From Anaerolineaceae bacterium (GTDB taxonomy: Bacteria; Chloroflexota; Anaerolineae; Aggregatilineales; Phototrophicaceae): 64,000 nucleotides of DNA. Made by a program: the position numbers and the translations under genes. Under the pieces are notes generated by a model, which searched no databases, had not been told where the DNA came from, and saw only the letters and a list, made by a program, of their open reading frames with translations. Location of the stretch: the NCBI GenBank assembly GCA_016124855.1, contig WGMX01000009.1, forward strand, positions 124,001 through 188,000, in the 5' to 3' direction. Shown piece after piece: positions 31,851 to 34,847 of this stretch (position 1 is its first letter; each line of letters starts with the position of its first letter).

Positions 31851-33104
31851 TTATTTCACTGTGAAAGTACAGCTTCCTGATTCGCTCGGCTTGTTTGTGC
31901 CGGGTCCGTAGTTATCGTAGCCATCGCTGATTTGGGCTTTCCATGACACATTGTAGGTAATGGAATGCTGCCCTGATGCCAGCGGCCCAGCCGGAACGTA
32001 CCAGAAAATATAGTAATTACCATCATTTTGTTTGCGGATGGACGACGCGTATTCGCGCCAATTGTCCAATGACTTACCGTCAACTTTTACATCGTAGACA
32101 ACGTTATCAAGATGCTGTTGTATCAAGTCACGGTCTTTGACAAACCAGCTCCAGAATACATCAATGGTTGCGCCCGCTAGCAGATTAGTCGGGGCAGGTC
32201 GTCCGAATGCCTTATTGTCACAGTAGGCCAAGACATCTACGCCGGATTGTGAACCGGTATTGCCTTCACCACCCACGCCGCCTGCTGACGGAGTGAAGGT
32301 CACGCCGACAAATGGGATACTGGGTGTTGCTGTATCAGCGCCAACCGGTGTGAAAGTTGCGGTACTGGTGGGTAAAGCCATCGCTGTTGCGGTGAGATTG
32401 ATGGCGTTAACATCAATCACGGGCAGTGGTGGCAGTGTGCCATCAATAGCTGATGAGGCAGGGGTATTGCTAGCGGCTGCGCTGCTCCCAACTTCTGTTG
32501 GCGTGATTACCGAGCGCGGAGGGGTCGGGGTAATCGTGCCGCCACCGAGAACAGCCGTAGGCAGCAGTGTGCCTTGAGCCAGCGCCGTCAAATTGGGTGA
32601 GGGTGTAGCGGTCGGAAATTCAGTCGGCACAGGGTTCACGCGTACCAACTCGGCGGCGATCCAGCCTTCACGACCATCATCCATACGAATGTTGAACCAT
32701 TTACTGTCGGGACTGGTCGCCAGAATTTGAACACCAGTACCCGGTTTCAGCGCTACAATCGCCCCGGCACTGACGCTCGGCCCTTCGCGTACATTGACCG
32801 TATTAATCGACGCGACGATTCCGGTTACCGGTGGTGTCGCGCTTGCCGTCGGAGTATTGGAGGGCGTGGGCGAAATGGGCGTGTCGGACGGGGTTAGGGT
32901 GAAGGTTGGCAGCGGCGTTCGGGAAGGTACAGGGGTCGCGGTAAAACGTGGTGTAAATGTGACCAGCGGTGCAAGTGTATCCGTCGCCACACCTGCGCTT
33001 TGTTCACTTGGTGTGTTCGTGGTACAAGCCGCAGTCACCACTAAAACAAGACCAATAACAATCAAACCGTAACGTGAATTAAATGTGTAGTTTCCCAAAC
33101 GCAT
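31851..33104 (-). CDS. SH3b-domain lipoprotein
   Basis: A 417-residue lipoprotein with a lipobox ending TAAC near residue 27. The N-terminal third is a Thr/Pro/Ser-rich linker (FTPRFTATPVPSRTPLPTF), then a bacterial SH3 domain at about 95-155 (INTVNVREGPSVSAGAIVAL to SKWFNIRMDDGREGWI). A second Thr/Pro linker follows, then a beta-sandwich-like C-terminal domain from about 285 (LAYCDNKAFGRPAPTNL). SH3b domains bind peptidoglycan or other cell-wall ligands, so it probably acts outside the membrane. Function is not proven. Confidence 0.85.
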   Translation of the reverse strand: MRLGNYTFNSRYGLIVIGLVLVVTAACTTNTPSEQSAGVATDTLAPLVTFTPRFTATPVPSRTPLPTFTLTPSDTPISPTPSNTPTASATPPVTGIVASINTVNVREGPSVSAGAIVALKPGTGVQILATSPDSKWFNIRMDDGREGWIAAELVRVNPVPTEFPTATPSPNLTALAQGTLLPTAVLGGGTITPTPPRSVITPTEVGSSAAASNTPASSAIDGTLPPLPVIDVNAINLTATAMALPTSTATFTPVGADTATPSIPFVGVTFTPSAGGVGGEGNTGSQSGVDVLAYCDNKAFGRPAPTNLLAGATIDVFWSWFVKDRDLIQQHLDNVVYDVKVDGKSLDNWREYASSIRKQNDGNYYIFWYVPAGPLASGQHSITYNVSWKAQISDGYDNYGPGTNKPSESGSCTFTVK

Positions 33105-33206
33105 AATCCAACCACTTTACTTTATCGGTAACCTCCCCCAATTTAGCAGCAAATAGGCTATTACGCAAAGTATCGAAAATAGCGGAGGTTAATCGTCAGA
33201 ATTTCC

Positions 33207-33235
33207 TTGACAGGTTTCTGCAAACACGCTAACCT
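33207..33235 (+). promoter_or_regulatory. Candidate promoter of the aspartate kinase leader
   Basis: TTGACA (33207-33212) is a consensus -35; TAACCT (33230-33235) lies 17 bases away and keeps the key T, A and final T positions. The predicted start near 33242 would give a leader beginning about 22 bases before the leader-peptide GTG. Confidence 0.6.
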
Positions 33236-33263
33236 TGTGAATTAGAAATTAGGAGAGACGTTC

Positions 33264-33350
33264 GTGAATCTTCGAATTGCTGGCACGATGACTATGGGTA
33301 TGATGACTACTCGGCACATAAGTGCAAGAGGGGTTTTCCGTCTGTCCTGA
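33264..33350 (+). CDS. Attenuator leader peptide, Thr/Met rich
   Basis: A 28-residue ORF starting at GTG with AGGAG eight bases upstream (33251-33255) and ending at TGA 33348. Residues 8-16 read TMTMGMMTT: four Thr and four Met codons in nine, with Ile at 5 and 19. Thr, Met and Ile are made from aspartate, the pathway that the downstream enzyme opens. The codon content and position match a leader peptide of the thrL type rather than a functional protein. Too short to score as a normal gene; the codon run is the evidence. Confidence 0.75.
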   Translation: MNLRIAGTMTMGMMTTRHISARGVFRLS

Positions 33351-33377
33351 GCCAGCCAATAACGGTGTGCAAACAGA

Positions 33378-33409
33378 AGCGTGTGGAAACCCCACACGCT
33401 TTTTTATTT
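33378..33409 (+). terminator. Intrinsic terminator in the aspartate kinase leader
   Basis: Nine-base stem AGCGTGTGG/CCACACGCT with a five-base loop and TTTTTTATTT downstream; it lies 23 bases before the aspartate kinase ATG, upstream of the gene rather than after one. Confidence 0.85.
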
Positions 33410-33431
33410 AACAAACTAGGGGAAATCCGCT

Positions 33432-34847
33432 ATGAAGACCATAACCATGAAGTTCGGGGGGACATCAGTAGGCAGTCCAGAAGCGATTGCGAATCTGGTG
33501 AGCATCGTCAAAGAGTCACGCGAGGCGGGTAACCGCGTGATCGTCGTCGTGTCGGCGATGTCGGGCGTGACCGACCAGCTGCTTAACTCGGTCAAAATGG
33601 CGGCCAGTGGCAATAAATGGGGGTATTTATCTACGGCCAACAAACTTCGTGACCGCCATGATGATGCCCTCAATATTCTTGTGCCTCCCGGTGAAAATCG
33701 CGAAAAGGCGCTGGTACAGACGAAATCTCTCCTAGAAGAATATACCGAAATCTGTCATGCTGTGAGCATCCTTGGTGAAGAAACTGCCCGAATCTCGGAT
33801 GCGATTGTGGCTTATGGTGAACGTTTGAGCAGCCGGTTAGTAGCTGCTGCCCTTAAGGCACGCGGTATAGAAGCCGCTGCTTTTGACGCGGGCGATTTCC
33901 TTGTGACCGATGACCGATACCAGAATGCAACGCCGTTGTGGGATGAAACCCAGTCACGTATTGACAGTAGACTGATGCCAGCTTTAGCGGATGGCATAAC
34001 CCCCGTCATCACCGGATTTATCGGCGCGACACGGACAGGCACACTTACGACACTGGGACGTGGTGGCAGCGATTATAGTGGTGCAATTTTCGCTGCAGGC
34101 AGCGACAGCGACGAATTGGTAATTTGGACGGATGTGGACGGCGTGATGACCACCGACCCACGCGTGGATAAACGCGCCCGTGTGCTGCCTTATGTTTCGT
34201 ATCAAGAAGTCGGTGAACTGGCGTTTTATGGCGCGAAGGTACTGCATCCAAAAACGGTGCAGCCGGTTCTTGATAAAGCGATCCCAATTCGCGTTCGAAA
34301 CACGTTTAACCCCACTTTCCCCGGTACGTTGATTGGTGAGATGGGCGAACCCAGTGTCACCGTCATCAAAGCAGTGACCAGCATCAAAAAAGTGAGCCTA
34401 CTCACGGTGAGCGGTAAAGGCATGATTGGTGTGCCGGGTATTGCCGGACGTACTTTTCACGCTACTGCCAGTGCTGGAGCCAGTATTTTGATGATCTCGC
34501 AGTCCTCATCAGAACAGAGCTTCTGCTTTTTGGTAACGGATACCACTGCTGACGCGGTGAAGCACAGCATCGAGACGCAGCTTGCCGCCGAAATAGCTAC
34601 CCGTGATATTGATCGTGTCGATGTGCGTGATGACGTGGTGATTATCACGGCAGTTGGCGCAGGCATGAGCGGCATTCCGGGCGTAGCGGGACGCGTTTTC
34701 TCGACGATGGGCAATAACCGGATTAACGTCATTGCTATCGCTCAGGGATCATCGGAATGCAGCATCTCGTTTGTGGTCGCCGAGTCTGATCTCGAACGCG
34801 CCGTGATTGCTTTGCATGATTTGGCGTTGGAGTCGGTTTCAGCCTGA
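33432..34847 (+). CDS. lysC: Aspartate kinase, monofunctional
   Basis: A 471-residue enzyme that phosphorylates aspartate in the first step of Lys, Thr, Met and Ile synthesis. The N-terminal signature MKFGGTSVGSPEAIANL and the catalytic/ATP region RGGSDYSGAIFAAGSDSDE, WTDVDGVMTTDP are present. The C-terminal regulatory half contains two ACT domains (LLTVSGKGMIGVPGIAGRTF and ITAVGAGMSGIPGVAGRVF) which bind effector amino acids. It lacks a homoserine dehydrogenase domain. Its leader carries the attenuator. Length and sequence suggest the ThrA-like branch. Confidence 0.93.
   Translation: MKTITMKFGGTSVGSPEAIANLVSIVKESREAGNRVIVVVSAMSGVTDQLLNSVKMAASGNKWGYLSTANKLRDRHDDALNILVPPGENREKALVQTKSLLEEYTEICHAVSILGEETARISDAIVAYGERLSSRLVAAALKARGIEAAAFDAGDFLVTDDRYQNATPLWDETQSRIDSRLMPALADGITPVITGFIGATRTGTLTTLGRGGSDYSGAIFAAGSDSDELVIWTDVDGVMTTDPRVDKRARVLPYVSYQEVGELAFYGAKVLHPKTVQPVLDKAIPIRVRNTFNPTFPGTLIGEMGEPSVTVIKAVTSIKKVSLLTVSGKGMIGVPGIAGRTFHATASAGASILMISQSSSEQSFCFLVTDTTADAVKHSIETQLAAEIATRDIDRVDVRDDVVIITAVGAGMSGIPGVAGRVFSTMGNNRINVIAIAQGSSECSISFVVAESDLERAVIALHDLALESVSA

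Follow-up and report, generated by a model that had tools for sequence, protein, structure and literature searches.

The thrL region of the enterobacterial thrLABC operon combines a threonine-rich leader open reading frame (ORF), in which isoleucine (Ile) is the companion of threonine (Thr), with alternative hairpins and an intrinsic terminator in front of an aspartate kinase (AK) gene. Leader-peptide attenuators have also been described in Actinobacteria, in a survey that found the threonine, lysine and methionine operons of that group without conserved RNA structures upstream (PMC1262725). Here we describe a candidate attenuator of the trp/thr type located before a gene for AK, the enzyme that opens the pathway to threonine and methionine, of the phylum Chloroflexota, in a stretch of 64,000 nucleotides from an Anaerolineaceae bacterium (contig WGMX01000009.1, positions 124,001 to 188,000; hereafter the window, whose own numbering is used for the leader region). 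Based on the comparison of its sequence with those of relatives, we estimate a probability of roughly 90% that the element is a ribosome-mediated transcription attenuator that would permit AK synthesis when charged tRNA-Thr or tRNA-Met runs low.

For Chloroflexi, the available text of PMC3766115 describes riboswitches and T-boxes and does not contain the term "leader peptide", while PMC4833913, as far as its available part goes, computed short leader genes in many groups, had too few Chloroflexi to judge and could hold a leader of this kind in its tables. Among the matches listed in the open-access literature, with subscription journals mostly outside, there was no report of leader-peptide attenuation in Chloroflexota. 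Both the phylum and the codon pair Thr plus methionine (Met) are apparently new for trp/thr-type attenuators.

Results

The leader region in the window

An earlier note, made from the letters of the window alone, had read the region as a thrL-like attenuator with a leader ORF, the residues TMTMGMMTT within it, an AGGAG motif and a terminator before the AK gene, and each of these parts was found in its place (Table 1). A run of nine codons with at least eight Thr or Met codons occurs a single time on both strands of the 64 kb, and the best of 3000 dinucleotide shuffles of positions 33207-33431 reached 6/9. The fold of 33240-33431 was better than those of its shuffles (z = -2.69, 1/200 shuffles as good). 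The terminator stem (33375-33403) has 12 pairs and is followed by a T-rich tail that ends 22 nucleotides (nt) upstream of the AK ATG. When antiterminator and terminator are set against each other, GGGGTTTTCC (33330-33339) stands opposite GGAAACCCC (33385-33393).

Rfam gave no match in 33100-33500, even at E 1, and hence none to its sequence family of threonine operon leaders. Neither the T-box model RF00230 nor the S-adenosylmethionine (SAM)-I riboswitch model RF00162 matched the window leader. The upstream neighbour gene lies on the opposite strand, and the source genome carries a second AK with 34% identity to that of the window.

Table 1. Parts of the leader region and the gene that follows, in window positions.
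Feature	Position	Strand	Description
Promoter-like TTGACA-N17-TAACCT	TTGACA 33207-33212; TAACCT 33230-33235	+	17-nt spacer
AGGAG	33251-33255	+	putative ribosome-binding site for the leader ORF
Leader ORF	33264-33350	+	28 codons; GTG start 33264, TGA stop 33348-33350; peptide MNLRIAGTMTMGMMTTRHISARGVFRLS
Sensor codons TMTMGMMTT	33285-33311	+	within the leader ORF
Hairpin 1:2	33310-33330	+	CTC-G-GCAC-ATAA-GTGC-AA-GAG; final base doubles as the first G of strand 2
Antiterminator strand 2	33330-33347	+	GGGGTTTTCCGTCTGTCC; partner within 33373-33393
Antiterminator partner strand 3	33373-33393	+	ACAGA foot plus GGAAACCCC
Intrinsic terminator 3:4	33375-33409	+	AGAAGCGTGTGG-AAACC-CCACACGCTTTT plus T tail
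AK gene	33432-34847	+	471 aa; TIGR00657 above cut-off; gene proposed as controlled

Conservation of the leader in the family

The AK was used as query in 98 genomes of the source's family in GTDB, 97 of which gave a match. Eight of the 98 had no match at ortholog level and in one more the ortholog was truncated at the end of its contig, leaving 89 loci with upstream DNA. Of these, 85 have a Thr/Met leader ORF with an intrinsic terminator behind it. The remaining four (L038, L046, L062 and L078), which lack the device, form one clade with support 99 in a quick AK tree of 27 family loci, where their contigs are named L117, L126, L130 and L144, so that one loss is enough to explain them. The earlier note had proposed a comparison with related Anaerolineae, and there the ORF, the Thr/Met codon run, the terminator and the alternative pairing are kept while the bases vary and the pairs covary. 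These comparisons establish the parts of the device, their conservation, spacing and covariation, and they support the attenuator reading put forward in that note.

The conservation of the codon run is specific to the reading frame. In codons -13 to -22 before the stop, 74.2% encode Thr or Met in frame compared with 0.9% and 0.4% in the shifted frames (85 leaders). All four Thr codons are used in this stretch (ACT 191, ACC 108, ACG 42 and ACA 24 of 850 codons), and the other residues include Met (ATG, 266), Gly (68) and, rarely, Ile (21). Thr and Met are both present in the run of 83/85 leaders, with means of 4.3 Thr and 3.1 Met in the ten codons before -12. In the leaders of the source's own genus ACT accounts for 42/49 Thr codons, as compared with 22/207 in seven ORFs of the window, and such a rare codon would give a sensitive sensor. 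The distance from the end of the Thr/Met run to the stop is exactly 36 nt in 57/85 leaders.

Named records among the close relatives are mostly metagenome-assembled genomes (MAGs) of Anaerolineae, Chloroflexi or Aggregatilineales, and a plasmid search gave no match. Two MAGs with other labels look mislabelled or mixed: JAPUDW010000391.1 (L092), labelled Bacteroidetes, has an AK at 90% identity, and JAHHHY010000012.1 (L106), labelled Pleurocapsa minor, has one at 69% identity.

Covariation of terminator and antiterminator

The terminator consensus obtained with RNAalifold from 50 aligned loci has 10 pairs, 6 of them with two-sided compensated changes. For the antiterminator, differences in loop length put the columns of alignment A1 out of register, so that column-based counting was given up, and the longest uninterrupted helix between the leader end and the top of the locus's own terminator was compared instead, using one locus per genus and permutation of the terminators. 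The mean helix was 8.16 for cognate pairs versus 6.09 when terminators were permuted among the 19 genera, and the permutation p was at its floor value of 1/201 in 50/50 genus resamplings. The alternative pairing suggested in the earlier note, which can be drawn in the window as GGGGTTTTC/GGAAACCCC, thus covaries across genera, for example as GGGAGATTTCC/GGAAATCTCCC in L019, GGAGAGTTCTG/CAGGACTCTCC in L044 and GTGGAGGTTG/CAACCTCCAC in L068. When the leader strand was shuffled, pairing of strand 2 with the terminator reached z < -2 in 53/85 loci, compared with 1/83 and 0/84 for control strands.

The same note had drawn a second pairing, between ATTGCTGGC in the 5' leader and GCCAGCCAAT after the stop codon. 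It can be drawn in the window, but across 83 loci it shows no conservation (mean z -0.19). Three other candidate helices were rejected as unenriched, namely a foot helix of the leader end with the post-stop spacer (TCTGT/ACAGA in the window; z +0.47 in the family when taken alone), and pairings of the antiterminator strand with the Thr/Met run (mean z -0.24) or with the 5' leader (mean z -0.19).

A hairpin directly after the codon run

A general part that was absent from the earlier note is the hairpin just 3' of the codon run, which gives the third helix of the classic switch. Hairpin 1:2 is formed by the bases directly after the run, CTC-GCAC/GTGC-GAG in the window and CUCC-CAUC/GAUG-GGGG in many relatives, where its 3' arm enters the antiterminator strand with four Gs (GGGG). 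Its mean z over 85 loci was -1.44, compared with 0.06 and 0.05 for upstream controls and -0.38 and -0.36 for two other stretches. In a fixed geometry, which was derived from the same sequences as were tested and is favoured by this, 69.8% of the cells of 36 distinct rows are paired, a value reached by 0/500 shuffles (maximum 61.5), and slid registers gave 42-57% paired.

Promoters and leader starts

The promoter-like TTGACA/TAACCT of the earlier note is present in the sequence, with TAACCT matching TATAAT at 3/6 positions, and was not reported by the built-in promoter scan, which found no site at the window leader. With a looser scan (5/6 in TTGACA, spacer of 16-18, and a second box with A at position 2 and 3/6 matches) a TTGACA-type promoter was found before the leader ORF in 81/83 family loci, two of the 85 being too short to scan, while 8.5 were expected from shuffles. 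The first in-frame start lies at most 10 nt from the -10 box in 16/81 loci of the family, which is not so in the window.

Start sites were also compared in three further families, f2, f13 and f107, where 10 of the 12 loci tested have a recognisable promoter. In all 10 (L229-L231, L234, L235, L237, L246, L249, L252 and L253) the leader ATG lies 7-10 nt past the -10 box without a Shine-Dalgarno (SD) motif. These 10 loci thus probably give leaderless mRNAs that carry the attenuator.

Spread in the class, and a SAM riboswitch in two relatives

Outside the family, 95 AK loci were examined, 5 from family f13 and 90 from a sample of 150 genomes of the class. A Thr/Met leader with terminator was present at 18 of these and absent from 77, and the 18 belong to six further families of the class Anaerolineae: f13 (5/5), f2 (4/4), f11 (4/4 loci fetched; 6 genomes of this family were sampled), f107 (3/4), f102 (1/2 genomes, L244) and f91, which is of the same order (1/1). 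The terminators of L249 and L321 were placed by eye. The terminator sequences of these families are unlike those of the source family, and strand 2 against terminator gave z < -2 in 12/18 outside loci, with 0/4 in f11. In an AK tree of 71 rows, with f11 and f91 left out, the leaders make up two main clades, with L244 in addition, and the tree forces 5 changes or more.

In two relatives a SAM-I riboswitch (RF00162) stands before the AK in place of the leader (L164, 1253-1377, and L303, 412-534); L303 comes from a genome of the same order and L164 is recorded as Aggregatilineales. When 400 genomes of the phylum were searched with covariance model R1, matches better than 1e-8 occurred only in the two family genomes sampled, and of eight weaker matches examined two were leaders (L187 and L188). 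At ten distant AKs (L157-L160, L162, L165 and L167-L170), where Rfam was not run, no Thr/Met leader was seen.

Leaders of other amino acid pathways

Examination of 20 weaker R1 matches in the family showed that 7 were leaders of other genes. Six family genomes have Tyr/Phe leaders before chorismate mutase (L209, L210, L211, L215, L222 and L223), with DAHP synthase next to it in 5/6, and L217 has a Phe leader before prephenate dehydratase. Elsewhere in the phylum, L187 is a Tyr/Phe/Trp leader before DAHP synthase. The gene names at these eight loci were assigned by reading the proteins. In the source genome, a Phe/Tyr leader MQTTFSFFGSYYYFTGHIETCRAICAGLRR followed by a terminator (L326, G000:C75; 620-771, reverse complement of the locus) precedes chorismate mutase and DAHP synthase (PF00793), and an Ile/Val/Leu leader MNSHKNIAIVISLISLIVLVLTCGI followed by a terminator (L329, G000:C56; 138-277, reverse complement of the locus) precedes a branched-chain aminotransferase (by reading) and an acetolactate synthase-type thiamine-pyrophosphate enzyme (PF02776). 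The trpE of the source genome has a T-box upstream (L328, 2096-2358), so that T-boxes and leader peptides coexist there. Before the second AK, two genes with a homoserine-dehydrogenase domain, the second DAHP synthase and trpE of this genome, the leader scan found none of the kind it targeted.

A wider proposal, which we make tentatively and place somewhat on the doubtful side of even, is that Chloroflexota of the class Anaerolineae run a whole set of leader-peptide attenuators, for which we found no description, and that these trade places with SAM riboswitches and T-boxes within the pathways concerned. The set would comprise Thr/Met leaders for AK, Tyr/Phe leaders for chorismate mutase and DAHP synthase, Phe leaders for prephenate dehydratase and Ile/Val/Leu leaders for branched-chain genes, and in f2, f13 and f107 the AK attenuator would act on a leaderless mRNA.

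Discussion

The leader combines a run of codons for pathway products in a short ORF, a terminator, a covarying antiterminator and, at group level, a 1:2 hairpin, which on sequence grounds is the composition of a trp/thr-type attenuator. From this we infer that the leader is translated with the footprints given below, that ribosomes stall on it, that transcription terminates and that the device responds to Thr and Met. With charged tRNA-Thr or tRNA-Met short, the ribosome would be held at the sensor codons; for footprints of the usual size, a ribosome whose A site is at the last Thr codon of the window leader would mask the 5' arm of 1:2 and leave strand 2 free. Strand 2 would then pair with strand 3, and the resulting antiterminator 2:3 would spoil the terminator and let RNA polymerase continue into AK. 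A ribosome that reaches the stop would cover strand 2, so that the terminator would form and transcription would end. If no ribosome is present, 1:2 would form and the terminator should win too.

Several observations weigh against this reading. Duplex energies over 74 loci differ by a modest gap (cognate -26.8, non-cognate -24.1), and at the median locus the cognate terminator is outdone as a partner by 17 of the 73 others. The spacing from run to stop is other than 36 nt in 28/85 leaders, and in some of them (L018, L037, L040 and L048) the stop codon falls within strand 2 or ahead of it, which requires a different stop-codon step at these loci. An SD-like 4-mer upstream of an in-frame start is present in only 30/85 family leaders, 10 of the 85 terminators were placed by eye where the automatic scan missed or misplaced them, and L088 is a weak member. 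For hairpin 1:2, the overlap with strand 2 in the window is one base only. Its pair count covers 40/51 loci outside genus g22, with 11 left out for want of an anchor. The hairpin is weak in parts of g5 and in g22; the latter genus does not conform to the geometry, and the one hairpin it has is shorter and GC-rich.

Among other explanations, the attenuator might sense threonine only, with the Met codons irrelevant. Thr is commoner than Met in the run and is missing from 0/85 leaders while Met is missing from 2/85, and the run of L244 is Thr-only. Met is nevertheless far above any other residue, it is found again in all but one of the six other families, and the SAM riboswitch that two relatives have before AK suggests a role of the Met branch for this enzyme; we therefore consider sensing of Thr alone unlikely. 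That the leader and its pairings are real with an output in translational or Rho-dependent control is quite improbable, given that a stem with T-rich tail is present in 85/89 loci and that the top of this stem is the target of the antiterminator.

The conserved C-terminal residues of the leader peptide (RGGF.LL type) could be taken to mean that the short ORF encodes a functional small peptide and that the terminator is constitutive or part of the upstream gene. The conserved residues, however, are encoded by the antiterminator strand, and this strand covaries with the terminator loop. The terminator has the promoter-like site of the leader on one side and AK on the other, and the upstream gene is on the opposite strand, so that this explanation is very improbable. 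A riboswitch or T-box in place of a translated leader has precedents close by, in the T-box before trpE of the source genome and the SAM riboswitches before AK in two relatives. Given the lack of any Rfam match in the leader region and a conservation that is codon- and frame-specific, it is the remotest of the explanations that were considered.

If the window element is an attenuator responding to Thr and Met, classic translation-coupled attenuation would extend to Chloroflexota, and transcription and translation in this phylum would be coupled closely enough for such a switch. The unusual pair Thr plus Met would allow a single switch to monitor the two branches that homoserine feeds, and the leader suggests which of the two AKs in these genomes serves the Thr/Met branch. 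The AK genes of one bacterial order would then stand under two unrelated RNA sensors.

With the leader-peptide attenuators of Actinobacteria (trp, trpS, leuS and ilvB; PMC1262725, in its accessible part) the window leader shares the logic of leader peptide and terminator outside Proteobacteria. The likeness to thrL extends to all the parts named at the outset, and the differences are that Thr is joined by Met here and by Ile there, and that the enterobacterial operon is headed by a fusion of AK and homoserine dehydrogenase, whereas the window has a lone AK in another phylum and a leader that Rfam does not recognise. The SAM-I riboswitch of L164 and L303 serves the same kind of gene and the same metabolic branch as the window leader; it binds S-adenosylmethionine directly and requires no translated leader, unlike the device described here, which would read the supply of Thr and Met through the ribosome.
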